Shown here: positions 3,111-59,541 of the stretch, piece by piece
Numbering within the stretch: position 1 is the first letter of the stretch
Layout: each line of letters starts with the position of its first letter
Source: Methylobacterium bullatum
GTDB lineage: Bacteria > Pseudomonadota > Alphaproteobacteria > Rhizobiales > Beijerinckiaceae
Direction of reading: 5' to 3'
DNA: 64,000 nucleotides
Assembly (NCBI RefSeq): GCF_014845095.1
Contig: NZ_NKUG01000051.1
Coordinates: 1-64,000 of the forward strand
The notes under the pieces: model-generated
The model's database searches: none
Seen by the model: only the letters and a program-made list of their open reading frames with translations
Told to the model about the DNA's origin: nothing
Program-made: the position numbers and the translations under genes

Positions 3111-3452
3111 GTGAAGGCTGGCTCCCGGAGGGGTTCTCGCCGATCGGACGACCGGCACGTGAGGCTCAACGTAGCAGCGGTCTCGCCCATCGCAATCGGT
3201 GAATGAGGCCTCACCGGAGATGTCAACCGCTCGACGAGGTTATAGCAATCGGCGTGCCGCGCGCGCGGCCAACATCCATTTCGGCGAAACAATGCCCCGC
3301 ATTTGAAATCGTAACGGGTAGGAGAAGATGAGGGGGCACGGACCGAAACAGCACATGAAAAAGGCCCGGCTTTGCAGCCGGGCCTTTTTCAGAACATCTT
3401 GAATGATCTTGCGGGATCGGAGCATGGCTCCGATCCCGCCGGCCATCGATGC
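3111..3452. other. 342-base intergenic stretch between gltI and the porin gene
   Basis: It holds the upstream region of the glt operon (about 3111-3350) and the porin terminator at 3357-3390. No convincing promoter match, RNA gene or further coding frame was seen. Confidence 0.6.
3357..3390 (-). terminator. Rho-independent terminator of the porin gene
   Basis: A 14-bp perfect stem, gaaaaaggcccggc (3357-3370) against gccgggcctttttc (3377-3390), closes a 6-base loop tttgca. On the minus strand the stem ends in a T run after a GC-rich core, 63 bases past the porin stop. The A/T tails make it potentially bidirectional. Confidence 0.9.
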
Positions 3453-5054
3453 TTAGAAGTCGCGCTGGACGCGCATACGCACCTGGTAGGTGTCGTCGGC
3501 GGTCACGGTACGAACGGCGCCGGAGGCGATGTTCGCGGCGTTGACGGTGCCGCTCGACTGGGTGCGGTCCACGACGCGGCCGTTCTGGACGCCGACCTTG
3601 GTGTAGAAGCCCTCGACACCGATATCGAGGTCCTTCACCGGCGACCAGATCAGGCTCGCGCCGGCGACGATCTGGTAGGTGTCACGGAGAACCGGGCTGA
3701 CGTCGAAAGAGGTCTGGCCGGGAACGCCGGTGAACTGACCAGTCGCACCGGTGGTCTGGAACGCCGCCGCATTGGCGGCGCGAGCGCCACGGGCGAAGGA
3801 GAGTTCGCCGTAGCTGCCGAACACGGCCGAACGCCACTCAGGCGACCAGTAGTGCAGGAACGAACCGACCACGGTGAAGCTGGTGGAGGTTTCGATCTTG
3901 CCGGTCAGAGGGTTCAGAGTGGCGTCGGACATGAAGGGATCGAAGGCAGCGCCGTTGATGGTGCTGGCAATCGAGGTGTAGCTGCCGTTGTAGGACGAGT
4001 AGCCCGTGTAGAGGGTCGCGCCCTCACCGTAGGCTCCCTGCAGGTACAGCGTATCGCCAGGAGCGATGAACGGGGTGTTGATCTTCACGCCACCCTGGAC
4101 AGCCCAGCCGTACTCGCTGGCGGGAGCCCCAGTCACAGCAGCCCCACCAAGACCGGGAACCGAAGCTATACCGAAGGTCGATCCAACGGGATTCTGGACG
4201 TTGATTTCCTTGACTGCAGCCGAGATCTGAGCCGAACCCCAGGCAGCATCGTAGCGCAGCACGCCAACGAAGTCGGGCATGCGGTTACGCTGCGAAACGT
4301 CGTAGTTCGAGAACGTATTCGTCGCGCCGACTCCGATGAGGACCGGGGACGGAGCGCCAGTGACGCCAGCCGCACCGAAGGTCTGCGAGTAAACCGTGTT
4401 GCGACGGAAGGTCGGGTCTTCGAGCGAGACCGTAGCCGAGAAGCCTTCGCCGAACTTGGCCGAGTAGGCCAGCAGGTTGGTCGACTGGACGTCCGAGTTC
4501 AGGGTCGCGCCGGCGAATTCGAAGTCGTGGGCGTAGAAGTCGAAGAACGAGGAGGCGCGACCGGCGGTGAGGCCGGCGAACTGGATGAACGCCTTGTCGG
4601 TGTTCACGAACTGCTGGTCGCGACCGACCTGGTCCTGGCCGGTTGCACCGAAGGCGGAGCCGATGCGCTCCTGGGTGCCGGAGCGGAGACCGCCGGTGGC
4701 GCCGGTGCGCGAGGCGAACTGGATACGGGTGAAGGCGCGCAGGGTGCCGTAGGCCGTCTGGGTGCGGGCATCGACGTTGATGCGGGCGAGACCGATATAG
4801 CCGGTCGTGTCGCCGTTGCCTGAGCCGGAGCGGCTGTCCGTCGGCTGGTAGCCGATGTCGAGGCGGGCGCGGCCCGAGAGACGGATGCAGGTATCCGTTC
4901 CGGGGATGTAGAAGAAGCCGGCGCCGTAGGCGGAGCAGACGCGGACGTATTCGATCGGCACGGCCTTCTTCACGGGAAGGTCGGCGGCATGCGCTCCAGC
5001 GACCGACGCAAAGGCTGCGGCAGTACCGAGGAGTGAGCTCTTCAAGAGCTTCAT
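3453..5054 (-). CDS. Outer-membrane porin (Porin_2 family)
   Basis: A general diffusion porin of the alphaproteobacterial Porin_2 (Omp2b-like) family, about 533 residues. The start at 5054 (MKLLKSSLLG) is preferred over 5099 because GGAG lies close upstream and the signal peptide then begins properly, ending AGAHA before ADLPVKKAV. The mature start is followed by the family pattern YVRVCSAYGAGFFYIPGTDTC and RLSGRARLDIGY. The body alternates beta-strands and Gly/Ala/Ser loops, and the chain ends in a typical outer-membrane terminal Phe (RVQRDF). It is longer than the usual 350-500 residues because of extended loops in the middle. It is single-gene, closed by its own terminator. Confidence 0.93.
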   Translation of the reverse strand: MKLLKSSLLGTAAAFASVAGAHAADLPVKKAVPIEYVRVCSAYGAGFFYIPGTDTCIRLSGRARLDIGYQPTDSRSGSGNGDTTGYIGLARINVDARTQTAYGTLRAFTRIQFASRTGATGGLRSGTQERIGSAFGATGQDQVGRDQQFVNTDKAFIQFAGLTAGRASSFFDFYAHDFEFAGATLNSDVQSTNLLAYSAKFGEGFSATVSLEDPTFRRNTVYSQTFGAAGVTGAPSPVLIGVGATNTFSNYDVSQRNRMPDFVGVLRYDAAWGSAQISAAVKEINVQNPVGSTFGIASVPGLGGAAVTGAPASEYGWAVQGGVKINTPFIAPGDTLYLQGAYGEGATLYTGYSSYNGSYTSIASTINGAAFDPFMSDATLNPLTGKIETSTSFTVVGSFLHYWSPEWRSAVFGSYGELSFARGARAANAAAFQTTGATGQFTGVPGQTSFDVSPVLRDTYQIVAGASLIWSPVKDLDIGVEGFYTKVGVQNGRVVDRTQSSGTVNAANIASGAVRTVTADDTYQVRMRVQRDF

Positions 5055-5521
5055 TGATATCTCCAAAAGCTTCGAGACCCGAGGGACAGGCAACTTCAAC
5101 CCGGCATGGACCGGCGTTCGTTTGCCTTTATTTGTTAGCCGGCAGGACTTGAGTGCCCCGTTCCGGCCGTGCCCCGGGGTTTCCCCAGTGCGTATTCACT
5201 CTGTGCGAGCGGGTTCCTGCGAGCAACTCGGAATCGCGAATGCCACATCGGTTCTGAACTGCTGTGGCGGCGCTGCAACGTTCGTCAGGCGGCAAACCAT
5301 GTCATCGCCGGGACCGATTGATGTGCAGAGCGGGGGCTGGGAGAAGAAAACCAATGCATCCTGCGGCGCTATTGAGATCAGTTGTTCCCGCCAGCGCACC
5401 CTTTGCTTAGTTTTTGTGCTTCGCACCGTCACCGGACCGTCATGAATCGGACATTGGCCCGGTCCGGCGCCGGCCCACGCACCGGCGCCGGAGGGATGGG
5501 TCATTTTCTCGGCGATGGCCG
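5055..5521. other. 467-base intergenic stretch between the porin and aspA
   Basis: Expected to carry the porin promoter and 5' leader (5055 to about 5400) and the aspA 3' hairpin near 5463-5492. A small plus-strand frame at 5122-5445 has no ribosome-binding site or recognisable content, so I do not call it a gene. Confidence 0.5.
5463..5492 (-). terminator. GC-rich hairpin at the 3' end of aspA
   Basis: tccggcgccgg (5463-5473) pairs perfectly with ccggcgccgga (5482-5492) across an 8-base loop. It lies 30 bases beyond the aspA stop. There is no T run after it, so it may act as a pause or mRNA-stabilising hairpin rather than a classical terminator. Confidence 0.5.
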
Positions 5522-7027
5522 TCAGGCCCCCGGATTGTTGCGCCTCACACGAGACGGAAGGGTCATCGCCTCGAGTTCGAGCAGGTGATCGAGCTGGGTC
5601 TCCGTCAGAAGCCCTTCCTCCAGCACGATGTCGGCCACCGGGCGATTCTCCGCCAGGGCGCGCTGGGCCACCCTCGAACACGCCTCGTATCCCAGAGCCG
5701 GCACCAGGGCGGTCACGAGGCCGATGGAACCATGGACGAGGGAGCGGCAGCGTTCGCGATCGGCCTCGATCCCTTCGATGCAGCGTTTCGTGAGGGTATC
5801 CACCGCCGCGGTGAGCATGCGCAGGGAACTGAGAACGCAGTATCCGATGGTCGGCTCGAAGGCATTGAGCTGGAGTTGCCCTCCCTCGGCGCAGAGGGTC
5901 ACGGTGAGGTCGTGGCCGATCACCAGGAAAGCGACCTGGTTGACCACTTCCGGGATCACCGGGTTGACCTTGCCCGGCATGATCGAGGAACCGGCCTGGA
6001 CGGCCGGGAGCCGGATCTCGCCGAAGCCGGTGCGCGGCCCGCTCGAGAGCAGGCGCAAATCGTTGCAGATCTTGGAGAGCTTCACCGCCACGCGCTTCAG
6101 CACGCCCGAGAACAGCACGAACGCGCCGAGATCGGACGTCGCCTCGATGAGGTTCGAGGCGAGCACCATCGGGTGCCCGGAGATGCGCGACAGCTCCTCC
6201 ACCGCCAGGGATGCATAGCGCGGGTCCGCGTTGATGCCGGTGCCGATGGCGGTGGCACCGAGATTGACCTCGCGGAACAGCCCGACGATCTCGTTCAGCC
6301 GGGCCACATCCTCCTTCATGGTGGCGTGGAACCCGTCGAATTCCTGGCCGAGGGTCATCGGCACCGCATCCATCAGCTGAGTGCGGCCCATCTTGAGGAC
6401 ATCGGCGAATTCCACGGCCTTGCCCTTGAAGGCGTAGGCGAGGTCGTCGAGAGCCTTGATGAGGGGCTGGGTCGCGAACATCACGGCCAGGCGCAGGGCG
6501 GTCGGATAGGCGTCGTTGGTGGATTGGGCCATGTTGACGTCGTCGTTGGGGTGGAGCGCCGCGTAATGCCCCAGCGGGTGCCCCATCAGTTCCAGGGCGA
6601 CGTTGGCGATGACCTCGTTGGCGTTCATGTTGGTCGACGTGCCGGCCCCGCCCTGGATCGCGTCCACCACGAACGATTCGGCAAAGCGGGGCTCGGTGGC
6701 GACGAGGGTGCAGGCGCGGTCGATGGCATCGGCCTTGTCGGCGGAAAGGTAGCCCAGCCGCCGGTTGGCGCGGGCGGCCGCCTGCTTCACCAGGGCGAGG
6801 CTTTTGACGAATTCGGGAAAGTGCCCCACCGGCACGCCGGTGATGGGGAAGTTCGCCACGGCGCGCTTGGTGTGGATCCCCCAATAGGCGCCCACCGGCA
6901 CTTCGCCATAGCCGAGGAGATCGTGCTCGGTCCGCGTCCGCGCGCCCTCCATCTCGACGGTTCGCACGGTGGCGACGGCGATGTTCTCGGCCGGCGCATC
7001 GGTGGGCTTCTGCGTGTCCGTCGCCAT
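5522..7027 (-). CDS. aspA: Aspartate ammonia-lyase
   Basis: Converts L-aspartate to fumarate and ammonia in the cytoplasm. It belongs to the fumarase/aspartase superfamily. The signature loop GSSIMPGKVNP carrying the catalytic Ser is intact, as are GAGTSTNMNANEV and QSTNDAYPT. The start at 7027 (MATDTQKPT) has GGGAGA just upstream; an in-frame start at 7048 is poorer. The length of about 501 residues slightly exceeds the usual 470-480 because of an N-terminal tail before RTEHDLLG. Its place among acidic amino-acid transport genes supports a role in aspartate catabolism. The alternative, class II fumarase, is less likely given the AspA-like motif spacing and context. Confidence 0.92.
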   Translation of the reverse strand: MATDTQKPTDAPAENIAVATVRTVEMEGARTRTEHDLLGYGEVPVGAYWGIHTKRAVANFPITGVPVGHFPEFVKSLALVKQAAARANRRLGYLSADKADAIDRACTLVATEPRFAESFVVDAIQGGAGTSTNMNANEVIANVALELMGHPLGHYAALHPNDDVNMAQSTNDAYPTALRLAVMFATQPLIKALDDLAYAFKGKAVEFADVLKMGRTQLMDAVPMTLGQEFDGFHATMKEDVARLNEIVGLFREVNLGATAIGTGINADPRYASLAVEELSRISGHPMVLASNLIEATSDLGAFVLFSGVLKRVAVKLSKICNDLRLLSSGPRTGFGEIRLPAVQAGSSIMPGKVNPVIPEVVNQVAFLVIGHDLTVTLCAEGGQLQLNAFEPTIGYCVLSSLRMLTAAVDTLTKRCIEGIEADRERCRSLVHGSIGLVTALVPALGYEACSRVAQRALAENRPVADIVLEEGLLTETQLDHLLELEAMTLPSRVRRNNPGA

Positions 7028-8088: not shown

Positions 8089-9363
8089 TCAGGCCGGCTC
8101 GGCCAAGGGCGACACGTCCCGGTCGAGGCTCTGGTCGGTCAGTTCCAGCTGCCCCTCCCATTTCGCCACGGCGACGGTTGCGACGCTGTTGCCCAGGACG
8201 TTGGTGGCCGAGCGGCCCATGTCGAGGAACTGGTCGATGCCGATGATGAGGAGGAGGCCAGCCTCCGGGATGTGGAAGGTCGAGAGCGTGGCGGAGATCA
8301 CCACCAGCGAGGCGCGGGGCACGCCGGCCATGCCCTTCGACGTCACCATCAGCAGCAACAGCATGGTCATCTGCTGCCCGAGGGTCAGCGGGATGTTGTA
8401 GGCCTGCGCGATGAACATCACCGCGAAGGTGCAGTACATCATCGAGCCGTCGAGATTGAACGAATACCCCATCGGCAGGACGAACGAGGTGATCTTGTTG
8501 GGCACGCCGAAGCGCTCGAGGTTCTGCAGGGTCTTCGGATAGGCCGCCTCGCTCGATGCGGTGGAAAAGGCGAGGAGGAACGGCTCCTTGATCAGGTTGA
8601 GGAGCCGCCGCATCTGCTTTCCGACCAGCAGGAAGCCGGCGAAGGCCAGCAGGCACCACAGCATGGCGAGGCTGAAGTAGAACTCCACCATGAACTTGCC
8701 GTAGGTCACGAGGACGCCGATGCCCTGCGTGGTGATCGTCGCCGCGATGGCCGCGAACACCGCGACGGGGGCGAAACCCATGACGTAGCCGGTGATCTTC
8801 AGCATCACGTCGGCGAGGCCCTCGATGCCCTCGGCCAGGAGCTTGCCCTTCTCCCCCAAAGCCGCGAGGGCCACGCCGAAGAAGATGGAGAACACGACGA
8901 TCTGCAGGATTTCGTTGTTGGCCATCGCCTCCACGGGGCTTTTCGGCACCAGATGGGTGACGAATTCCTTGAGCGAGAGCGACGCGGCCTTGAGGTTGGT
9001 GGTGGCGCCGGCATCCGGCAGCGGCAGGTTCAGGGCGTCGCCGGGCCGCAGGATGTTGACCATCACCAGGCCGAGCAGCAGCGAGCACAGGGACGCGCCG
9101 ACGAACCACAGCATCGCCTTGCCGCCGACGCGGCCGACGGAGGCGGTGTCGCCCATATGCGCGATGCCGACGACGAGGGTCGAGAAGACCAGCGGCGCGA
9201 TGATCATCTTGATCAGGCGCAGGAACACGTCACTGACGAGGGCGATGTAGCCGGAGATTTCCTTGGACGTCTGAGGGTCCGGCCATGTGATGTTACAGAG
9301 ATACCCGACCGCGATGCCCAGAAGCATACCGATGAAGATGTAAGTCGTCAGCCTGGACTGCAT
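8089..9363 (-). CDS. Dicarboxylate/amino-acid:cation symporter (DAACS family)
   Basis: A 424-residue inner-membrane secondary carrier of the GltP/DctA family. It has about eight helices plus the re-entrant loops. Hallmarks are the serine-rich hairpin TASSEAAYPKTL (HP1), SFNLDGSMMY, TSKGMAGVPRASLVV (HP2) and NVLGNSVATVAVAKWEG near the end. It would import glutamate/aspartate or C4-dicarboxylates with protons or sodium. The HP2 sequence looks closer to GltP-type glutamate carriers than to DctA, but substrate cannot be settled from sequence. It is the most upstream gene of the minus-strand acidic amino-acid module. Confidence 0.93.
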   Translation of the reverse strand: MQSRLTTYIFIGMLLGIAVGYLCNITWPDPQTSKEISGYIALVSDVFLRLIKMIIAPLVFSTLVVGIAHMGDTASVGRVGGKAMLWFVGASLCSLLLGLVMVNILRPGDALNLPLPDAGATTNLKAASLSLKEFVTHLVPKSPVEAMANNEILQIVVFSIFFGVALAALGEKGKLLAEGIEGLADVMLKITGYVMGFAPVAVFAAIAATITTQGIGVLVTYGKFMVEFYFSLAMLWCLLAFAGFLLVGKQMRRLLNLIKEPFLLAFSTASSEAAYPKTLQNLERFGVPNKITSFVLPMGYSFNLDGSMMYCTFAVMFIAQAYNIPLTLGQQMTMLLLLMVTSKGMAGVPRASLVVISATLSTFHIPEAGLLLIIGIDQFLDMGRSATNVLGNSVATVAVAKWEGQLELTDQSLDRDVSPLAEPA

Positions 9364-48385: not shown

Positions 48386-51099
48386 TGCCGTTGTCGGTGA
48401 CGGGACGCGAAACGAGGCCGAGGCAGAGGTTGGGACACGGGTTGCGTACAGTCTCCGACATCGCGAAGCTCGCCGGGTTGCTGGCGTTCGTCTCCGGCGC
48501 CGCGCTCACGCTCGGCTCCGATGGTGCGAGCGCGCAGGCTGCCGGCCAGAGTGACAGGGGCCAGGCCCGCAAGGCTGCGGCGCCCAAATCCGCTGTGGCA
48601 CCCAAGGCCGCCGCGCAGCCCGCTCCTGCCCCCACGGGCAAGCCGGCCGAGCGGCTCCTCGTCGAGGCCGCCGAGCTGATCTACGACAACGACAACAACA
48701 CCGTCACGGCGCGCGGCAATGCCGAGCTGCATTACGGCCCGCGCACCCTGCAGGCCGACCGCGTGCGTTATGACAGGGCCAGCAGCCGCGTCTTCGCCGA
48801 GGGCAACGTCCGTCTCACCGACGAGACCGGCGCCGTCGTGACCGGCGACACGATGGAACTGACGGACGATTTCCGGAACGGGTTCGTCGACGCCCTGCGC
48901 ATCCAGCAGACCGTGGAAATGCGGGGCCAGCCGGTCCGCACGCGCTTCTCCGCGCCGCGCGGCGAGCGGGTGGACGGCGAACAGACGACCTTCGAATCCG
49001 GCACCTACACCGCCTGCGAGCCGTGCAAGAACAATCCGGAGACGCCGCCCCTGTGGCAGGTGCGCGCCGCCAAGATCATCCACAACAACGAGACCCACAT
49101 CATCGGGTTCGAGGAATCGACCCTCGAGATCGCCGGTATCCCCGTCGGTTACCTGCCCTATTTCGAGGCGCCGGACCCGACGGTGAAGCGCAAGACCGGC
49201 TTCCTCACGCCGCGCTTCATCACCTCCACCGCCCTCGGCAGTGGCATCTCGACGCCGTTCTTCATCAACGTCGCGCCGAATTTCGACATCACCCTGACGC
49301 CGTCCTTCCTGAGCGAGCAGGGTATCCTCGGCCAGGGTGAGCTGCGTCACCGGCTCGACACCGGAACTTACACCATCCGCGCCAGCGGCATCTTCCAAAC
49401 GACGCCCAGCGCCTTCCTTCCCGGGCCGCTCGGCGCGGGAGACCGCGACTTCCGTGGTTCGATCGAGACCACGGGCCAGTTCTACATCAACGACCGGTGG
49501 CGCACGGGCTGGGACGTGGTCGGCGTCACCGACAAGTGGTTCCTCGACAATTACCGCGTCCGCAATTCGAGCATCACCACGGATTACTTCCGTGAGGCGG
49601 TCTCGACGGCCTACCTGATCGGCCAGGGCGACCGCTCCTGGTTCGAGGCGCGCGCCTACTATTTCAAGGGTCTGTCGAGCTACGATTGGCAGAAGGAGCA
49701 GCCGGTCGTCGCGCCGGTGATCGATTACGACAAGCGCATCAACGGTCCGGGCTTCCTCGGCGGCGAAGTGCGTTTCGAGGCCAACATCACCCATCTCGAC
49801 CGTGAAGCCACGGATTTCCAGGCGATTCCGCGCACGGGCTCCTACTACTTCAATCCCACGGTCAACGGGACGACCTACTCGCTCTACGAGACCTGCACCA
49901 CCTTCACGCGCAGCACCTGCATCATCCGCGGCCTGTCGGGGAGCAACACCCGCGCATCCGCGCAGCTGTCATGGCGCCGGACCTTCATCGACGATGCCGG
50001 CCAGGTCTTCACCCCGTTCGCCTATCTGCGCACGGACGCCTTCTTCGTCGATCCGCGCAATTCCGGCTATCAGAACGCCCTCGCGCAGACGATCAGCACC
50101 ACGGATTCGGATTTCTCAGGGCGGGTGATGCCGGCGGTGGGTCTCGATTACCGCTATCCCTTCGTGAGCAATTTCGGCCCCCTCGGCGTCCACACCCTCG
50201 AACCCATCGCGCAGGTCGTGATCCGTCCGAGCGAAACGCATATCGGCCGCCTGCCCAACGAGGACGCGCAGAGCCTCGTCTTCGACGACACGTCGCTGTT
50301 CGAGTGGGACAAGTTCTCCGGCTACGACCGTGTCGAAGGCGGCGTCCGCACCAATCTCGGCGCGCAATACTCGGTGGTGACGCCGTCGGGCTGGTACGCG
50401 AACGTGATGTTCGGCGAATCCATCCAGGTCGCCGGGGTCAACTCGTTCCGTCGGGGCGATCTGGCCAATGTCGGCCTCGATTCCGGCCTGGAGCGCCGGG
50501 AATCCGATTATGTCGGACGCTTCCAGCTCTCGCCCAACCAGAACATCAGCTTCGTCACCCGTGCGCGGTTCGAGCAGCGGGACTTCACCGTCAACCGCCT
50601 GGAGACGGGCGTCATCGCGCGCCTCAACCCCTTCGCGCCCATCGACCTGTCGATGTTCTATTCCTACTACGCCGCCCAGCCCCTGCTCGGTTTCAACAAC
50701 CGCAGAGAGGGCCTGACCGCCTCGGCGACCTACCACATTACCCCGAACTGGTTCGTCACCGGCTCGGCCCTCGTCGATCTCACGCACTATCTCGACGTGC
50801 GCGATAATTTCGCCAACGCCTACACCTCCTATCTCGCCAATCCCGTGGGCGCGGCGCCGGTCTATACCAATCCCGGCCGCGCCAACCTCGCCGGATTGAG
50901 CATCGGCGGCGGTTATCAGGACGAGTGCACCACCTTCTCGCTCAACTACATCGTCTCTCCGACGGCCGCGGCCCTGGGCGTCACGGAGCGCAACCGCACC
51001 GTGCTGCTGCGCGTCGAGTTGAAGACCCTCGGCGAAGTCGACCTGCGGCAGAACGTCAACATCGCGAGCACGGCCGACGGCATCGCGGCGACCCGGTGA
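48385..51099 (+). CDS. lptD: LPS-assembly protein LptD
   Basis: Outer-membrane beta-barrel that inserts LPS into the outer leaflet. 904 residues from ATG 48385, with AGGAGG 10 bases upstream. A signal region (about 30-50) is followed by an Ala/Pro/Lys-rich linker, the jellyroll OstA domain (ELIYDNDNNTVTARGNAELHYG split over two strands), then the barrel. Cysteine pairs include CEPC near 215 and CTTF in the barrel part. It overlaps the lptG stop and ends 49 bases before pdxA; surA is not in between. Confidence 0.95.
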   Translation: MPLSVTGRETRPRQRLGHGLRTVSDIAKLAGLLAFVSGAALTLGSDGASAQAAGQSDRGQARKAAAPKSAVAPKAAAQPAPAPTGKPAERLLVEAAELIYDNDNNTVTARGNAELHYGPRTLQADRVRYDRASSRVFAEGNVRLTDETGAVVTGDTMELTDDFRNGFVDALRIQQTVEMRGQPVRTRFSAPRGERVDGEQTTFESGTYTACEPCKNNPETPPLWQVRAAKIIHNNETHIIGFEESTLEIAGIPVGYLPYFEAPDPTVKRKTGFLTPRFITSTALGSGISTPFFINVAPNFDITLTPSFLSEQGILGQGELRHRLDTGTYTIRASGIFQTTPSAFLPGPLGAGDRDFRGSIETTGQFYINDRWRTGWDVVGVTDKWFLDNYRVRNSSITTDYFREAVSTAYLIGQGDRSWFEARAYYFKGLSSYDWQKEQPVVAPVIDYDKRINGPGFLGGEVRFEANITHLDREATDFQAIPRTGSYYFNPTVNGTTYSLYETCTTFTRSTCIIRGLSGSNTRASAQLSWRRTFIDDAGQVFTPFAYLRTDAFFVDPRNSGYQNALAQTISTTDSDFSGRVMPAVGLDYRYPFVSNFGPLGVHTLEPIAQVVIRPSETHIGRLPNEDAQSLVFDDTSLFEWDKFSGYDRVEGGVRTNLGAQYSVVTPSGWYANVMFGESIQVAGVNSFRRGDLANVGLDSGLERRESDYVGRFQLSPNQNISFVTRARFEQRDFTVNRLETGVIARLNPFAPIDLSMFYSYYAAQPLLGFNNRREGLTASATYHITPNWFVTGSALVDLTHYLDVRDNFANAYTSYLANPVGAAPVYTNPGRANLAGLSIGGGYQDECTTFSLNYIVSPTAAALGVTERNRTVLLRVELKTLGEVDLRQNVNIASTADGIAATR

Positions 51100-51148
51100 G
51101 ATCGGGCGAGAACCCGGCCTCGCCTTCTTCCGGCGACGACAGCAGGCC

Positions 51149-52168
51149 ATGACGGTGCACAGACCCATTGCGCTCACGATGGGCGATCCCGCCGGTATCG
51201 GGCCGGAGATCGCCCTCATGGCCTGGCTGGCCCGGGACGAAGGGGCCGGGCTTCCGCCGTTCTTCCTCATCGGCGATCCCGATTTCATTGAGGCGCGGGC
51301 GAGCAGCCTCGGCTTTCAGGTGCCGGTGGCGGAGGTCGGACCCGATCTCGCGGTCGAGGTCTTTTCGCGCGCGCTCCCGGTCATGCCCCTGCCGAGCGGC
51401 ACGCGTGTCGGCGCCGTGGCGGGACGGCCGAGCGCGGCCGATGCCGGCGCGACCCTCGAATCGATCATGACGGCGGTCGGTCTGGTCCGGTCCGGCGAAG
51501 CGATCGCCCTCGTCACCAATCCGATCGCGAAATACGTCCTGACCAGCGTCGGCTTCGCCTATCCCGGCCATACCGAGTTCCTCGCGGCCCTGGCGGCGGA
51601 GCCCGGCAAGGCCGCGCCGCTCCCCGTGATGATGTTGTGGAGCGAGACGCTGGCGGTGGTTCCGGTGACGATCCACGTCGCCCTTCGCCGCGTGCCCGAT
51701 CTGTTGACGCAGGACCTCGTGGTCCGGACGGCACGCATCGTGGCGCGGGACCTGACGGAACGCTTCGGCATCCCCCATCCCCGCCTCGTCTTGTCGGGGC
51801 TGAACCCCCATGCGGGTGAGGCCGGCACGATGGGGACGGAAGACCGCGACGTTCTGGAACCCGCCGTGGCGCAGCTCCAGGACGAAGGGATCGACATCAG
51901 AGGCCCGCTTCCGGCGGATACGCTGTTCCATCCCCGCGCCCGGGCGGCCTACGACGTCGCGCTGACGCCGACCCACGACCAGGCCCTGATCCCGATCAAG
52001 ACCATCGCCTTCGACGATGGCGTCAACGTCACGCTGGGTCTGCCCTTCATCCGGACCTCGCCCGATCACGGCACCGCCTTCGACATCGCGGGCAAGGGCG
52101 TGGCGCGGCCGGACAGTCTGACGGGCGCCCTGCGGCTCGCCGCCAGACTCGCGGGGCAACAGGCATGA
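51149..52168 (+). CDS. pdxA: 4-hydroxythreonine-4-phosphate dehydrogenase
   Basis: A 339-residue NAD-dependent enzyme of vitamin B6 synthesis. Start [20 protein letters not shown] matches the family's conserved N-terminus. Metal-binding His residues lie in [19 protein letters not shown] and [10 protein letters not shown] (about positions 140, 210 and 270). The C-terminal [13 protein letters not shown] binds substrate. The stop overlaps the rsmA start (ATGA), the classical pdxA-rsmA arrangement. Confidence 0.96.
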
Positions 52169-53071: not shown

Positions 53072-53524
53072 TCAGAACTTGCCGAGCATCGGGAAATCGA
53101 CGTTCAAGGCCGATTCGGCGGCCAGCGGCGCCTCGCGCCGGCGCGGCTTGCGGTTGATCACCTGTTTCAGCTTCGATTTCAGCACGGACATGTCGAACGG
53201 CTTCAGGATGAAGGCATCGGCGCCGGCCTGGTGCGCGAGGTTGATGTCCTCGAAATCGAACGACGCCTCGGTGAGGATGAAGGGCGTGTTCATGAGCGCG
53301 TCGTCGCCGCGGATCTCGCGCAGGAGCGTCAGCCCGTCCATCGGCTCCATCATCAGGTCCGAGATCACAAGGGCGTATTTGCGCTCGCGCAAACGCTCCA
53401 GCGCTTCGGGACCGCTGGTCACGCCGTCGACATCGGGGAAACCGATCCGCGTCATCAGCAGGATGACCAGCTTCAGCAGTTTCTCCTGATCGTCGACGAT
53501 CAGGATCGGTGGGGTCTCACTCAT
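53072..53524 (-). CDS. CheY-like single-domain response regulator
   Basis: A 150-residue receiver domain with a short C-terminal tail. The acidic pocket is VDDQE, the phospho-acceptor Asp lies in VISDLMMEPMDG, the conserved Thr in FILTEA and the Lys in FILKPFDMS. No DNA-binding output domain is present. The tail (about 125-150, KPRRREAPLAAESALN) is basic then neutral. It lies 55 bases after the BLUF gene on the same strand, so they are probably co-transcribed. Function is inferred: a phosphorelay signal, possibly to motility. Confidence 0.92.
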   Translation of the reverse strand: MSETPPILIVDDQEKLLKLVILLMTRIGFPDVDGVTSGPEALERLRERKYALVISDLMMEPMDGLTLLREIRGDDALMNTPFILTEASFDFEDINLAHQAGADAFILKPFDMSVLKSKLKQVINRKPRRREAPLAAESALNVDFPMLGKF

Positions 53525-53579
53525 GGGCTTTCGAAGCTCAAAGTCGGATATCCGACATCAGGAAGGCTGGGACGCAGCA

Positions 53580-54047
53580 TCAGACGAAGAGATGGTCGAT
53601 GCCCTGTTTGGCCAGCGATTCGGCCTGCAGGGCAACGGCGAGAGAATGGATCACCCCGCCTTTCGGAGTGCCGCGCTGAAACATCGGCAGCAGGCCGGCC
53701 TTCTGGAAGATCGCGTCGTTCGCCGGGTTGCGGATGACGGTCACGAACGAATTGACGAATTCCCGCTTCACGATCTCGCGCCACTCGACGATCTGCACGT
53801 CGCGATGCCGGGTATCGTTGCTGATCCGTCCGAAGGTGTCGTTCACGGAGGTGCGCTCGCCTTCGATGATCTGGGCGGCGAAATTCTGCTCCACCAGCAG
53901 GAAGCTCGTGATGACGGAGAATTCGTTCTTCTTCTGCGCCTGCCGCGTGATCTCGCCGAGCTGGCGAGTCCGGCCCGCCGCATCGGCGGCGAGATTGAGG
54001 CGCGAGAAATAGATGAGATGGACGAGGGTCGTCCGCTTGCTCTTCAT
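53580..54047 (-). CDS. BLUF-domain blue-light sensor protein
   Basis: A 155-residue protein with a BLUF (FAD-binding, blue light) domain over about residues 5-105. The active-site Tyr lies in HLIYFSR, the flavin-contacting Asn in KKNEFSVIT and the Gln in NFAAQIIEGE; RISNDTRHRDVQIVE is the conserved later block. The Trp and Met on the last beta strand (AppA positions 104 and 106) appear as Ser and Val in FVNSFVTV. There is no output domain. It precedes the response-regulator gene. ATG at 54047 has GGAGAGGGA upstream. Confidence 0.88.
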   Translation of the reverse strand: MKSKRTTLVHLIYFSRLNLAADAAGRTRQLGEITRQAQKKNEFSVITSFLLVEQNFAAQIIEGERTSVNDTFGRISNDTRHRDVQIVEWREIVKREFVNSFVTVIRNPANDAIFQKAGLLPMFQRGTPKGGVIHSLAVALQAESLAKQGIDHLFV

Positions 54048-54221
54048 GATCCCTCTCCGTTGCGCCAACGGCCCGACGATAACCGACCTGGGCATAACGC
54101 TGGGTAAACGACGCCGGCACTCTATCACGAAACCGGCAAAAGCTGCCGGGGCATTCCAGGCAAATGTCGGTTCTTGCCGGCCATCTAAAGAACTAATCTT
54201 GTATTTTCAATGAGTTAGATT

Positions 54222-54236
54222 TGGCATCCCGCTTGC
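54222..54236 (+). promoter_or_regulatory. Candidate sigma-54 promoter of flgE
   Basis: TGGCATCCCGCTTGC matches the RpoN consensus TGGCAC-N5-TTGC, with the invariant GG at 54223-54224 and GC at 54235-54236 separated by exactly 10 bases. The predicted start of transcription is near 54248, about 45 bases before the flgE ATG. Confidence 0.6.
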
Positions 54237-54292
54237 GGATGATGGCATGAACCGATCTCGGTCCACATTATTTTCAACAAAGGTTGCCGGTC

Positions 54293-55687
54293 ATGGATGT
54301 GTTTTCCGCGTTGCAGACGGCGGTCTCGGGCATGAAGGCCCAGGGCTTCTCCCTCGAGAACATCTCCGGCAACATCGCCAACTCGCAGACCACGGGCTTC
54401 AAGCGGGTCGATACCAGCTTCGTCGACCTCGTCGCCGAGCAGGCACCCAGCCGTCAGGTCTCTGGCAGCGTCAGGGCGAATTCCGTCCTGACCAACTCGA
54501 TCCAGGGCAACATCATCGCGACCGAGACACCGACCAACATTGCCTTGAATGGACCGGGCTTCTTCGCCGTGCAGACGAAGACCAGTGACGTCAACGGCCA
54601 GACCTCGTTCTCGCCGGAAAATCTTTACACACGCCGAGGCGACTTCAAGCCGGACGACGAAGGCTATCTCCGCAACGGTGGCGGCGCCTACCTCACCGGG
54701 ACCAATCTGAACCCCATCACGGGCAACGCCACAAGCCAAGGTCCGATCCAGATCTCGAAATTGCCTATCCCCGGTAAGGCAACGAGCGCGATCAACTATG
54801 CGGCGGAGCTTCCACAAGCCCCCTCTAAAGATCTGGTTGGAACGGGCCTTGCTGGCAACCCTAATCCGATCGTACTGACGGGAGTGGGAGGCGGAACCGT
54901 TGCCTCGGGAGTTGAGGCAAAAAAACTCATGGACGGCAGTATGGCAGGTCCAATGCTGACGACATACTCCGCCATTGGAGCACCTGTAGACCTGAAAACA
55001 GTATGGACAAAAATTCAAGACGCAGCTGCAGCCACAACGATTACGAACGATGATGGCACTACAACTGCAGTTCCCGCAAAGAATGCCGTATGGAATTTAT
55101 TCTACGCCAACGACACTACGGTGAGCGGTGCGGACTCTTCATGGAAGAACGCGGGAACAGCCTTCGAATTCGACGCGGGCGGCACGCTCCTGAAGCCAGA
55201 TGGGGGATCCATCACGCTCGCCGCGCCGACGATCGACGGTGTGGCTCTCGGACCGATCACCATCAATTATGGCCAGGGATTAACGGCTTTCGGAAAAGGG
55301 GAAGTTGTAACATCGAAGCTTAATCAGGACGGATTTACATCAGGCTCATACAAAGACAGCTATATCAGCGAAGATGGAGATGTCGTTGCTAACTACAGCA
55401 ACGGAAATTCTGTTACTATTGCTAAAGTCAAGGTTGTGCAGTTCACAAACCCCGACGGGTTGAAGGCAGACTCATCAGGAAATTATCGGCAGACGCTCGA
55501 TTCAGGGAATCCCCTGGTTGGCCTCAATGGCACGACGATCGAAGGCCAGAATATCGAGCAGTCGAATACGGACATTGCGAGCGAATTTTCTAAGATGATC
55601 GTAACCCAACAGGCCTATTCTGCGAACACGAAGGTCATTTCGACCGCGCAGGACATGATGTCCTCGTTGATCAATATCATCCGCTGA
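54293..55687 (+). CDS. flgE: Flagellar hook protein FlgE
   Basis: Forms the hook that joins basal body to filament. 464 residues. The N-terminal motif SALQTAVSGMKAQGFSLENI with NIANSQTTGFKR is the typical rod/hook start, exported by the flagellar secretion system without a signal peptide. A FlgE D1/D2 middle region follows, and the C-terminal helix SEFSKMIVTQQAYSANTKVI ends in NIIR. The middle (about 54780-55680) is noticeably AT-rich. Start ATG 54293. A candidate sigma-54 promoter lies upstream. Confidence 0.95.
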   Translation: MDVFSALQTAVSGMKAQGFSLENISGNIANSQTTGFKRVDTSFVDLVAEQAPSRQVSGSVRANSVLTNSIQGNIIATETPTNIALNGPGFFAVQTKTSDVNGQTSFSPENLYTRRGDFKPDDEGYLRNGGGAYLTGTNLNPITGNATSQGPIQISKLPIPGKATSAINYAAELPQAPSKDLVGTGLAGNPNPIVLTGVGGGTVASGVEAKKLMDGSMAGPMLTTYSAIGAPVDLKTVWTKIQDAAAATTITNDDGTTTAVPAKNAVWNLFYANDTTVSGADSSWKNAGTAFEFDAGGTLLKPDGGSITLAAPTIDGVALGPITINYGQGLTAFGKGEVVTSKLNQDGFTSGSYKDSYISEDGDVVANYSNGNSVTIAKVKVVQFTNPDGLKADSSGNYRQTLDSGNPLVGLNGTTIEGQNIEQSNTDIASEFSKMIVTQQAYSANTKVISTAQDMMSSLINIIR

Positions 55688-55724: not shown

Positions 55725-57602
55725 GTGTCGTTATCAGCCCTGAACACGGCCATGGCCGGCCTGAAGACCACTCAGGCCGCCATCGGCATCGTCTCGCAGA
55801 ACATCGCGAATGTCGGCACCACCGGCTATGTCAAGCGCTCGCTCGACACTGTCGCCCAGGGGCCCGGCAATTCCGGCGTTGCCCTCGGCACGATCGACCG
55901 GGTCTTCGACGAGAATTCGTTGAAGCAGCTGCGGCTGGAGACGTCCGGCGCGTCCTATACGGGCATGATGGCGGACGTCCGGACCCAGCTCGACAAGCTC
56001 TACGGCACGCCCGGCACGACGAGCGCCCTCGACGGGGTGATGAACAGCTTTACCCTGGCGCTCCAGACCCTCGGCGCTGCCCCGGACTCCGCGCCCGCCC
56101 GCTCCGCCGTGGTCGCGGCGGCATCGAACCTCGCGACGAAGATCGGAAGCATCGCAGAGGGGGTCCAATCCCTGCGCACCGCGACCGAGAGCCAGCTCTC
56201 CAACGATACGTCGGCGGCGAGCGGCCTGCTCTCGTCCATCGCCCAACTCAACGTCAAGATCGCGGCCACCAGCGACGATGGGTCCAAGGTCGCCCTGCTC
56301 GACCAGCGCGACCAGGCCCTCAATTCCCTCTCCGGCTATCTCGACGTGCAGGCCTCGGTGCAGCGCGACGGGACCGTCACGGTCATGACCAATTCCGGCA
56401 TGACCCTGGTGGACCGGGCCAGCGCGGCGAGTTTGAGCTTCGACGGCCGCGGCACGCTCGGTCCAGAGGACAGCTACTCCGCGGACCCGGCCCAGCGCGG
56501 CGTCGGAACCATCACGGCGACCACGCCGGGCGGCGGAACGATCGATCTGGTGGCCTCGAACGCGATCCGCTCGGGCTCGCTGGCCGCCGGAATCGAGCTG
56601 CGCGACACGGTTCTGCCCCAGGCCCAGCGCCAGCTCGACGATCTCGCGGCGGGCCTGTCGCGGTCGCTGTCCGATACGTCGGCGGTGGGCACGCCCGCCT
56701 CCACGACGACCGGAGCGGGTTTTGACATCGACCTGACCGGCCTCAGCGCCGGCAACGCCATCACGATCAGCCTCAAGGATGACAAGGGCGCCCAGCGCAA
56801 CCTGATCCTGGTTCCGTCCAAACTGAATCCGCCGGCCGCCGTGAACCGGACCGATGTCGCCGACCCGCTGGCGACCATCGTGCCGTTCACGCTGGAGAGC
56901 GACCCGGCCAAGCTCGGCGCCTCGATCGCCGCTGCCCTCGGCTCGTCATTCACCGTGACGTCCAACGGCACTGTCGGCAAAGAAGGCGCGGTCAGAATCC
57001 TGACCCCGGCGAACGGGACCACGACGATCCAAGGGATCAGTGCGAGCGTCACCCAGTCGAAAACGGCCGACGACGTGACGAACGGCAAGCCGCAGATCCC
57101 GCTCTTCGTCGATGGCGGCGGCCAGGCCCGTCTCTTCACCGGCTCGTTCGATGGCGGCTCGCAGCTGACGGGCTTTGCTCAACGCATCGCCGTGAACCCG
57201 GCGGTGGCGGCGAAGACCGAATCGCTGGTGAAGATGTCGTCATCCACTCCCGCCAACGACGTATCGCGGCCGCAATACCTCCACAACGCCCTCACGACCG
57301 CCAACCGGACCTTCTCGGCGGCGAGCGGAATCGGCGGCATCAGCGCCCCCTTCACGACCTCGGTTCAGGACTTCACCCAGAAGATCATCGACGCCCAGGG
57401 CGCCGCCACCGCGACCGCACAGTTTCTCGACGAAGGGCAGAGCATCGCTCTGGCGACGGCGCAGAGTCGGTTCGCGGGCACATCCGGCGTCAAGATCGAC
57501 GAGGAGATGTCGAAGCTCGTCGGGTTGCAGACGGCTTATACCGCCAATGCCCGCGTCCTCACAGCCGCGCGCGACATGCTGGACACGCTTCTCCGGATCT
57601 AG
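55725..57602 (+). CDS. flgK: Flagellar hook-associated protein 1
   Basis: Junction protein between hook and filament, 625 residues. N-terminal SLSALNTAMAGLKTTQAAIGI and IVSQNIANVGTTGYVKR are classical. The C-terminus has DEEMSKLVGLQTAYTANARVLT, the FlgK end helix. The middle domain is variable. It lies 37 bases after flgE and is closed by a strong hairpin at 57608-57632. Confidence 0.95.
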   Translation: MSLSALNTAMAGLKTTQAAIGIVSQNIANVGTTGYVKRSLDTVAQGPGNSGVALGTIDRVFDENSLKQLRLETSGASYTGMMADVRTQLDKLYGTPGTTSALDGVMNSFTLALQTLGAAPDSAPARSAVVAAASNLATKIGSIAEGVQSLRTATESQLSNDTSAASGLLSSIAQLNVKIAATSDDGSKVALLDQRDQALNSLSGYLDVQASVQRDGTVTVMTNSGMTLVDRASAASLSFDGRGTLGPEDSYSADPAQRGVGTITATTPGGGTIDLVASNAIRSGSLAAGIELRDTVLPQAQRQLDDLAAGLSRSLSDTSAVGTPASTTTGAGFDIDLTGLSAGNAITISLKDDKGAQRNLILVPSKLNPPAAVNRTDVADPLATIVPFTLESDPAKLGASIAAALGSSFTVTSNGTVGKEGAVRILTPANGTTTIQGISASVTQSKTADDVTNGKPQIPLFVDGGGQARLFTGSFDGGSQLTGFAQRIAVNPAVAAKTESLVKMSSSTPANDVSRPQYLHNALTTANRTFSAASGIGGISAPFTTSVQDFTQKIIDAQGAATATAQFLDEGQSIALATAQSRFAGTSGVKIDEEMSKLVGLQTAYTANARVLTAARDMLDTLLRI

Positions 57603-57632: not shown

Positions 57633-57750
57633 TTGCTCCAGGTCTTCTTTCCGCATTTCGTTCTTCCGAAACGTGGGCTCCACGGTTCGGGTCACTTGTC
57701 CGGCGTCTTCCAACGGTCATACCCGTGAAGACCCTTTCGCCGAGGTCACG

Positions 57751-59541
57751 ATGACGATCAGCGCCTTCACGGCAGGCACCTATTTTCAGGATCGCAACAC
57801 AGCGAATCTGGTCAGCCAGAAGGCGCGCCTCGATGCGTTGACGACCCAGCTCAGCACCGGACGCAATGCGGAGACGTATGGCGGCATCGGCTCTGCGCGA
57901 ACCACCAGCCTCTCTGCCCACGCCTCGCTCAGCGCGCTCGATGGCTACGATGCCGCGATCAACGCGAACACCACGCGGGTGACGGTCGCCAGTTCGGCGG
58001 TGACACAGCTCTCCAACCTCAGCGGCATCGTCCAGGGTTCGTTGAATAGCGGGTCGATCGCGTCCGGTTCGAACGCCGTGCAGGTAGCCAGGAACAGCCT
58101 GGACGCCGCCGTGGACGCCTTGAACCAGGACGTCGCCGGCAATTACATCTTCGGCGGTCGCGATTCTGACGCCCCACCCGTCGCCTCGTCGGATGCGATC
58201 CTCAACGGCGTGCCCAGCCGCAACCTCGACGGCCTCAAGACCGTGGTGAGCGAACAGATCGCCGCCGATCTCGGCCCGAACGGCAATGGCCGCATCGCCA
58301 CGAGCGTGTCGGGCTCCACCGTGACGGTCAGCGAAGAGGGTGCCGGAGCCGGAGGCACGGAGGCGCGTGCGAATTTCGGCTTCAGCCTCGTCTCTGCGGC
58401 GAGTTCGAACCCGGCGGCCATCACGACGGGGCCGATGACGGCGCGCACGAACCCGGACGTCACCTTCTCCGTGGCCAACGCGCCGGCGGAAGGCGACCGC
58501 ATCCGCGTGGCGATCAACCAGCCCGACGGAACCCAGAGTTTCACCGACCTGATCGTCACCGCCAATCCTCCGGCGGATTCCACCAACACGATCCCGCTCG
58601 GTACGGCCGCCGACACCGCCGCCGCCCTCACGAAGAGATTCGAAAACCAGCCCGTTGCCAGCATCCAGGGCAAGGCCTCCCTCGGGCTCGCCGCGAATTT
58701 CGGCGCCGGCACGCCGGCTTCGGTAGAGCTCAATGTGAAGACCCCTCCGGCGGCGGGGGACACGCTGACCTTCAAGCTCGCGCTTCGTGACGGCACCACG
58801 CAGACGATCACGCTGACCGCGAAGGCGAATGCGGATGCGAAGTCCACCACCGAGTTCTCGCTGACCGGTGACGTCGCCGCCAACATCTCAACCGCCCTGT
58901 CGAACGCGCTGAAGGAGACGGCGGGGACGACCCTCTCGGCGAGTTCGGCGTCGCGCGCCACCCAGGATTTCTTCGCCGGGTCGAAGACCGAGGGTCTTGC
59001 GCCGCGCCGCGTATCGGCGGACGGGAACGGCTACGCGGAAGGAGCCAGCGCCACGACCGTCATCTGGTACACCGGCGACGATACCTCCACCGATCCACGG
59101 GCGACGGCATCGGTGCAGATCGGCTCGGACCGAAAGATCGGCATCGGAGCCCAGGCCAACGAGGCGCCGATCCGCGCGGTCCTCGCCGGGATCGCGCAGG
59201 TCGCGGTGCAGAGTTTCACCACCACGCAGACCGGAACGTCGGAGGCGGCACGCTACCTCGCCGTCGCGGAACGCTCACGCTCGGTTCTCACCTCCACCAA
59301 CGGGCGCGAGGGATTACAGGCCATGGCCAGCGATCTCGGCCTCGCGGCCAAGACCATGACGGAGACGAAGGCCGACAACCGCGCCGCCAGGGCCACCCTT
59401 CAGGACAGTCTCGACGGCGTCGATACGGTCTCCCTCGAGGAAGTGACAGCGAAGCTCCTGGCGCTCCAGAACCAGCTTCAGGCGAGCTACCAGGTGACCT
59501 CGATGCTCTCGAAGCTGACGCTGACGAACTACCTCTCCTGA
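57751..59541 (+). CDS. flgL: Flagellar hook-associated protein 3 (FlgL), enlarged
   Basis: The last junction protein before the filament. 596 residues from ATG 57751 with GAGG upstream. The flagellin-like N-terminal helix reads ANLVSQKARLDALTTQLSTG and VDALNQDVAGNYIFGGRDSD; the C-terminal helix reads EVTAKLLALQNQLQASYQVT, then LTLTNYLS. The family is usually about 300-360 residues; the extra length lies between about 160 and 480, in low-complexity beta-type sequence. It lies 118 bases after the flgK terminator. Confidence 0.92.
   Translation: MTISAFTAGTYFQDRNTANLVSQKARLDALTTQLSTGRNAETYGGIGSARTTSLSAHASLSALDGYDAAINANTTRVTVASSAVTQLSNLSGIVQGSLNSGSIASGSNAVQVARNSLDAAVDALNQDVAGNYIFGGRDSDAPPVASSDAILNGVPSRNLDGLKTVVSEQIAADLGPNGNGRIATSVSGSTVTVSEEGAGAGGTEARANFGFSLVSAASSNPAAITTGPMTARTNPDVTFSVANAPAEGDRIRVAINQPDGTQSFTDLIVTANPPADSTNTIPLGTAADTAAALTKRFENQPVASIQGKASLGLAANFGAGTPASVELNVKTPPAAGDTLTFKLALRDGTTQTITLTAKANADAKSTTEFSLTGDVAANISTALSNALKETAGTTLSASSASRATQDFFAGSKTEGLAPRRVSADGNGYAEGASATTVIWYTGDDTSTDPRATASVQIGSDRKIGIGAQANEAPIRAVLAGIAQVAVQSFTTTQTGTSEAARYLAVAERSRSVLTSTNGREGLQAMASDLGLAAKTMTETKADNRAARATLQDSLDGVDTVSLEEVTAKLLALQNQLQASYQVTSMLSKLTLTNYLS

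Follow-up and report, generated by a model that had tools for sequence, protein, structure and literature searches.

Could a blue-light receptor gene that lies beside flagellar genes in Methylobacterium bullatum form, together with the receiver gene that follows it, a light input to motility? In the 64,000-nucleotide stretch of DNA that we analyzed (the window), a short BLUF protein of 155 amino acids is encoded on the minus strand at 53580..54047 and matched Pfam PF04940 at 73.4 bits (cut-off 25). PF04940 was the only Pfam family listed for this protein, and no output domain was found in it. After a gap of 55 bases on the same strand lies a gene for a 150-amino-acid receiver protein (REC; 53072..53524, minus strand), characterized below as a single-domain pseudo-receiver derived from CheY, which matched PF00072 at 78.1 bits (cut-off 30.2) and no second Pfam family at E 0.001 or better. 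Open reading frames and domain matches thus bear out the original prediction of a BLUF protein without an output domain and a stand-alone receiver, 55 bases apart on one strand. Our preferred reading, to which we assign a probability of roughly 0.4, is that the two form one light-signalling unit in which the BLUF protein would contact a phosphorylation-independent duplicate of CheY, with its output at the FliM motor switch.

The gene pair, its neighbors and its conservation

The pair is divergent from flgE, which occupies an open reading frame at 54284-55687 on the plus strand (ATG at 54293; Pfam and NCBIfam FlgE/FlgEFG matches). It is followed on the plus strand by flgK at 55725-57602, which matched the flgK-family models of Pfam and NCBIfam, and by a gene at 57673-59541 for which Pfam gives nothing. 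As this last gene has only below-cut-off NCBIfam matches to flagellin, hook-associated protein and FlgL, the flgE and flgK of the previously proposed flgE-flgK-flgL series were confirmed and its flgL is probable. The flgL-like product is long (622 amino acids), in keeping with a hook-associated or flagellin-like protein that has diverged strongly. No kinase or output gene was found among the named neighbors of the pair (rsmA, pdxA, lptD, flgE, flgK, the flgL-like gene, a gene for an M3-type peptidase, and fliP). In related bacteria, surA often sits between lptD and pdxA; here lptD almost abuts pdxA at 51099-51149 and surA is absent between them. By consensus matching, the 55 bases that separate BLUF from REC hold no terminator-like site, and one sigma-70-like site was found at 54294-54267 (minus strand), about 220 bases ahead of BLUF and at the start of flgE. 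The genome as a whole contains five BLUF matches and 82 receiver matches. Two of the other BLUF matches share a contig (L045, G000:C27), on which they lie about 1.4 kb from each other (at 9275 and 10906).

To describe conservation, we used the best 80 of 90 confirmed stretches for the BLUF protein (the named loci), 78 of which are labelled Methylobacterium or Methylorubrum and two of which are metagenome bins labelled by family alone (L074, L091); together with the window they make up a genus set of 81 rows. BLUF proteins of the closest named loci are 97-98% identical to that of the window, which places the window in Methylobacterium. BLUF followed by REC, on the same strand and in the same order, was found in 80/80 named loci (best 80 of 90), and likewise on one strand in 30/30 loci of a relatives search that includes the window's own locus and overlaps the 80-locus set. 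The pair is also intact at 7/7 loci from two further genera of the family, three in g44 and four in g58. The arrangement is therefore a conserved unit for which chance is no explanation, and conservation in other genomes, which the original prediction had named as a check, came out in its favor.

The two genes also occur together. Within the genus, the BLUF subfamily is present in 110 of 111 genomes. The exception, G014, is a draft of 420 contigs and 94% completeness in which REC is missing too, the best match to it being at the level of CheY, and FliM is present; in this genome, both genes are gone together, through loss or an assembly gap. Among 199 genomes of the family, 17 contain the full-length BLUF subfamily at E below 1e-39 (next match 3e-23): ten of the same genus, three of g44 and four of g58. 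The REC subfamily was found in those identical 17 genomes at E below 1e-68 (next match 9e-38), and none of the 199 has one subfamily alone. We translated 20 of the weaker matches to the REC profile; every one of them looks like a CheY and has the usual VTA. With profile A3, the BLUF subfamily was found in 9/397 genomes of an order sample (E 1e-25) and 2/385 of a class sample (E 1e-20), all of the same genus, though at most nine candidates were scored per genome, so that misses are possible, and g44 and g58 genomes were probably not drawn. Mean column identity across 28 rows is 80% for BLUF and 86% for REC, and judged by these alignments both proteins are strongly constrained. The flgE proteins of other loci are 44-78% identical to that of the window.

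Next to the pair, flgE lies divergently upstream of BLUF in 76 of the 80 named loci. In the remaining four (L071, L073, L075 and L104, at about 3400-6470), the upstream genes are flgI, a FlgJ-like rod-binding gene and a FlgN-like gene; Pfam confirmed FlgI in the two loci tested and Rod-binding in 4/4, and the FlgN-like gene, which has no Pfam match, is named from its place and size. As the order FlgN-like gene (at the left edge), flgL, flgK, flgE, BLUF occurs in 17 other named loci, these four look like losses of flgE, flgK and flgL from a single ancestral cluster. Flagellar genes thus border the pair in all 80 named loci. We searched the g44 and g58 stretches for flgE, flgK, flgL, flgI, flgJ and the FlgN-like gene and found none in 7/7 loci, a search that a very diverged flgE or flgL might escape and in which one stretch (L039) measures 5.1 kb. 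The g44 pair adjoins a carboxyl transferase gene (3/3 loci) and the g58 pair adjoins an MFS transporter gene (4/4 loci). Since these pairs stand by other genes, flagellar linkage is a trait of the genus and is not universal. FliM is present in 111/111 genus genomes, and therefore the genus offers no flagella-less member in which the pair could be separated from motility. Besides the strong FliM match, many Methylobacterium genomes contain another, distant match to this family (E about 3e-29 to 4e-26; for example, G013:C22:109400-109954); the window's own genome has one FliM match in all.

These neighborhoods bear on the alternative that survives best, namely that BLUF and REC are a real switch whose target lies outside the flagellar motor. 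Such a target could be a kinase, an enzyme acting on c-di-GMP or a transcription factor, and the flagellar address would then be an accident of one ancestor. The g44 and g58 addresses would fit this, as would the persistence of the pair where flgE, flgK and flgL are gone and the diversity of known BLUF partners (AppA-PpsR, BluF-BluR and PixD-PixE, in the consulted portion of PMC5899715). Set against it are the flagellar genes at every named locus, the presence of FliM in all seven g44 and g58 genomes, and the origin of REC from a chemotaxis CheY whose alpha-5 residues it retains (below). We regard a target outside the motor as unlikely, if well short of negligible.

The DNA between flgE and BLUF was compared in 22 aligned intergenic stretches (the window and 21 chosen loci), which yielded three blocks that were later counted in 80 loci; because the patterns were picked after viewing the alignment, these counts are descriptive and are not tests. 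The first is a sigma-54-like site, TGGCAY-N5-TTGC (here TGGCAT-N5-TTGC; 54222..54236, plus strand), which faces flgE and is the sole match in the window; alone it is not significant, as a match also occurred in 17/100 shuffles of the window. The related GCAA-N5-RTGCCA, written on the BLUF strand, is present in 71/80 loci. The second, an inverted repeat CGGCAG..TGCCG (54134..54148, no strand), is present in 44/80 loci compared with 3/1600 shuffles. The third, TTTAC-N3-5-CGTTAT (54094..54108, minus strand), is upstream of BLUF and is a possible promoter or operator of the pair; it is exact in 53/80 loci compared with 0/2000 Markov shuffles, 36 of the 53 exact copies stand 60-64 bases before the BLUF start, and most of the remaining 27 loci show near forms on visual inspection. 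The four loci without flgE serve as a natural experiment: the TTTAC block is retained in 4/4, and the GCAA-N5-RTGCCA form and the inverted repeat are each found in 0/4. By this pattern, the TTTAC block is assigned to the pair and the other two blocks to flgE. None of the three was found upstream of the pair in the six g44 and g58 loci examined (the third searched in a form starting GTTTAC). A general stress pathway, which the original prediction had also raised, finds no support in the promoter: an EcfG-like site, whose consensus we took to be GGAAC-N15-19-CGTT, is absent within 300 bases upstream of BLUF, which is a weak test, and its N17 form is absent from the entire window.

Descent and active site of the receiver

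In a PDB profile search with REC, CheY came first (E 1.4e-29, 106 bits). Leaving aside the CheYs and a single de novo designed chain at 93 bits, the best-scoring family reached 60.5 bits. Against the receivers of its own genome, the next best match to REC scored 127 bits and the following one 57; the 127-bit receiver, inside the open reading frame L199:8364-9152, is the chemotaxis CheY and is followed by a CheZ gene. We built a tree of 53 rows, including 15 RECs and 21 chemotaxis CheYs of the family. The RECs form one clade (100/100) that groups with the family's chemotaxis CheYs (98/94), with E. coli CheY outside, and the branch to the REC clade measures 1.5 changes per column; the tree carries a long-branch warning among the outgroup receivers and does not resolve where within the CheYs REC branches. 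Judged by these searches and the tree, REC arose by duplication of the family's chemotaxis CheY and evolved fast. The structural model of REC is modest (mean pLDDT 70.5; residues 125-150 under 50), and in VIA-align, CheY, PleD and others had Z of 17.4 to 19.5 among the matches listed. The fold therefore does not single out CheY, as the sequence searches and the tree do.

To compare residues, we set the 21 CheY rows against the 81 genus REC rows and the seven g44 and g58 rows. Residues common to CheY and REC include, among others, L9, D12, D13, D57, K109, P110, F111, L116 and K119 (E. coli numbers), and the same fixed change is seen in both REC groups at, among others, T16, I20, W58, M85, V86, T87, Y106 and V108. 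In CheY numbers, the substitutions include Thr87 to Glu, Tyr106 to Phe, Trp58 to Leu and Val86 to Thr. In alpha-5, L115, K116 and K118 of REC are also found in CheY, and several alpha-4 positions are unlike CheY. Given these alpha-4 differences and Phe at the place of Y106, FliM binding by REC may be altered.

The most striking change lies in the active site. By ungapped profile alignment to CheY, REC Glu86 (codon 53267..53269, minus strand) takes the place of CheY Thr87, and it is Glu in 81/81 genus rows and 7/7 g44 and g58 rows (88/88). In the same 81/81 and 7/7 rows, Asp is invariant at the phospho-acceptor position 56 (codon 53357..53359, minus strand), as are the active-site Lys108 (codon 53201..53203, minus strand), Asp11 and Asp12. 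For comparison within the genome, we took 70 of the 82 receiver matches (30 loci and 40 regions, with the 12 weakest left out) and dropped three (two short loci and one with stops), so that 67 were aligned, including REC (L210). Among the 66 others, the Thr87 place is occupied by 35 Thr, 26 Ser, 2 Ala, 1 Leu and 0 Glu, with 2 gaps in rows that were probably mis-cut near contig starts. REC thus has all of the five canonical receiver residues (DD, D, T and K) except T, which is Glu. In the part of PMC12632262 drawn on here, a pseudo-receiver is a receiver without any one of D, DD, T or K, and by that definition the aligned residues make REC a pseudo-receiver. The same excerpt states that T and K each bind one phosphoryl oxygen and that T is often replaced by Ala. 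As far as the relevant portion of PMC4395418 goes, the T/S place is seldom charged in receivers without the Asp, with RitR (Asp81) as an exception.

Because the Thr that would hold the phosphoryl group is a fixed Glu, REC probably lacks normal Asp phosphorylation. We infer that it is not switched through ordinary phosphorylation, the alternative being an altered phosphoryl lifetime. On the same ground, of the two routes that the original prediction had offered, direct contact with BLUF is favored over an unlinked kinase. The opposing case is that REC is still a regulator of the CheY type that CheA or some unlinked kinase phosphorylates; BLUF would then tune this kinase or a phosphatase, and Glu86 would alter only the lifetime of the phosphoryl group. 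Its strength lies in the four invariant residues Asp11, Asp12, Asp56 and Lys108, whose retention would be surprising in a protein that phosphorylation never affects and so counts against our preferred reading, and in position 87 (CheY Ala88), which is small (A/S/T/V) in 81/81 genus rows. Since the phosphoryl-binding Thr/Ser is an acid in 88/88 rows, at a place seldom charged in the survey of Asp-less receivers excerpted from PMC4395418, we consider a phosphorylated REC quite unlikely.

The BLUF protein and known light-signalling systems

The AlphaFold model of the BLUF protein has a mean pLDDT of 89.2, and a Foldseek search against the PDB placed TePixD and Slr1694 first (E 3e-9 to 8e-9 and TM 0.68-0.79 in the first seven rows). 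Tyr13, Ser15, Asn41 and Gln59 are invariant in 81/81 genus rows, and the Tyr, Asn and Gln, placed by alignment to PixD, correspond to the FAD-binding network given in the consulted text of PMC5899715. Gln59 (codon 53871..53873, minus strand) is the glutamine of the FAD-Gln-Tyr network; its place is occupied by Gln in 4/4 g58 loci and by His in 3/3 g44 loci (L036:8013-8471, L037:8014-8472 and L038:7100-7558), where the pair is kept and where light sensing is perhaps lost or changed. In profile alignments, the semi-conserved Trp and Met of beta-5 are missing from the BLUF protein: PixD Met93 faces the Phe101 (or Leu) column, PixD Trp91 faces a column that is not Trp, and the Trp of Tll0078 faces a gap. 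The missing residues and the g44 His weigh against a standard BLUF photocycle. It is accordingly conceivable, though improbable, that BLUF is no working light sensor and instead serves REC as a scaffold, with or without bound flavin (with a role in redox, temperature or assembly): the g44 His and the loss of the beta-5 residues would allow this, as PixD M93A retained the red shift and lost the conformational change, but the flavin-pocket residues are invariant across the genus set and PixD Trp91Ala showed no significant change in FTIR difference spectrum or phototaxis (both mutants as described in the available part of PMC5899715).

Both proteins end in tails that are candidate contact sites by the pattern of their conservation. 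The BLUF tail QGIDHLF (53586..53606, minus strand), a possible contact motif, follows the last helix and is invariant in 28 aligned rows; the final five residues of the model have a mean pLDDT of 55. The REC tail FPxLGK is present in 79/81 genus rows (one row is tail-less and one has Arg at the last place) and was not found in the g44 or g58 REC rows.

Among known systems, the pair most resembles PixD-PixE of Synechocystis, in which a short BLUF protein is likewise encoded next to a response-regulator-like partner (in a putative operon there and in 80/80 named loci here), and the best structural matches of our BLUF model are PixD proteins. According to the excerpted text of PMC5899715, PixD acts on PixE through a light-dependent complex that is broken by light. 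The output of PixD-PixE is motility, and by analogy we propose the same output for BLUF and REC. PixE is named a CheY-PATAN regulator and counted as a non-phosphorylatable response regulator in the portion of PMC5812497 drawn on here. There are also clear differences: REC has no PATAN domain (150 amino acids, PF00072 only) and derives from a chemotaxis CheY, the beta-5 Trp and Met of PixD are missing, and the hosts of our pair have flagella whereas Synechocystis has type IV pili. We therefore rejected membership of the PixD-PixE family on the grounds of the PATAN domain and the descent of REC.

REC is also similar to the Cle proteins (CheY-like c-di-GMP effectors): these too are single-domain receivers related to CheY, with a C-terminal tail that contains Arg. 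The relevant part of PMC5677366 describes them as CheY relatives that are off CheA, respond to another input and still bind FliM; CleA and CleD both bind FliM, and the phospho-switch residues are dispensable for their activation. Unlike in Cle, the partner of REC is a BLUF protein. Not a single copy of the tandem Cle motif [YF]xGP[DE][RK]R was found in the RECs (0/81 in the genus, 0/7 in the others), and none of 28 REC rows has the conserved alpha-4 Arg (residues 91-100 of the window's REC read FEDINLAHQA), so REC was rejected as a Cle protein. With pseudo-receivers and ALRs, REC shares the lack of one of the five active-site residues (by the excerpted definition in PMC12632262), and with RitR it shares an acid at the T/S place (Asp81 in RitR, Glu86 in REC; PMC4395418, in part). 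Unlike ALRs, which lack the phospho-acceptor Asp, REC keeps that Asp, both acids and the Lys; most ALRs retain a coupling residue (T/S 61% or Y/F 66%, in the consulted section of PMC4395418). Finally, chemotaxis CheY is nearest in sequence and in the tree and has the D12, D13, D57 and K109 places in common with REC, but REC lies outside any che operon in the window and has a C-terminal tail.

A possible light switch for the flagellar motor

Our preferred reading is based on four observations: the conserved pair, the CheY origin of REC, the replacement of Thr by Glu in an active site whose other residues are retained, and the flagellar neighborhood throughout the genus. Under this proposal, the short BLUF protein would sense blue light and would act on REC by direct contact, with PixD-PixE as the model. 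REC would need no normal Asp phosphorylation and probably could not use it. Light would set whether BLUF binds or releases REC, and free REC would act at the motor switch, the site of action of its ancestor, by binding FliM or by competing with CheY-phosphate. The consequence would be altered reversal or swimming. Against this reading count the g44 and g58 pairs that stand away from the tested flagellar genes, the g44 His at the BLUF glutamine, the loss of the beta-5 Trp and Met, and the departures from CheY at Y106 and in alpha-4. The earlier idea that the two proteins make up a short light-signalling unit touching motility draws support from the conservation of the pair, its flagellar neighbors in 80/80 named loci and the descent of REC from CheY. 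More broadly, a BLUF gene next to an altered CheY suggests that the flagellar motor has a light switch built in. That the whole genus steers its flagellar motor by blue light, through a BLUF protein that grips or releases a CheY duplicate with a built-in acid in place of its phospho-switch and so bypasses the chemotaxis kinase, is a bolder claim that we consider possible and somewhat doubtful.

Methylobacterium lives on sunlit leaves. Among the titles and abstract openings listed in our literature search, none described a light receptor acting on Methylobacterium motility, and no listed title on BLUF, PixE, or Methylobacterium light and motility concerned the BLUF-REC pair. How bacterial pseudo-receivers are switched on and off is called a mystery in the part of PMC12632262 cited here. 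REC is a pseudo-receiver with a fixed genetic partner and a presumed input, light, that can be switched at will; how it contacts its partner, what its output is and what the Thr-to-Glu change does are open to direct study in a genus that is tractable in the laboratory. If the proposal is true, the pair would be a separately evolved, flagellar counterpart of the cyanobacterial PixD-PixE pilus system.
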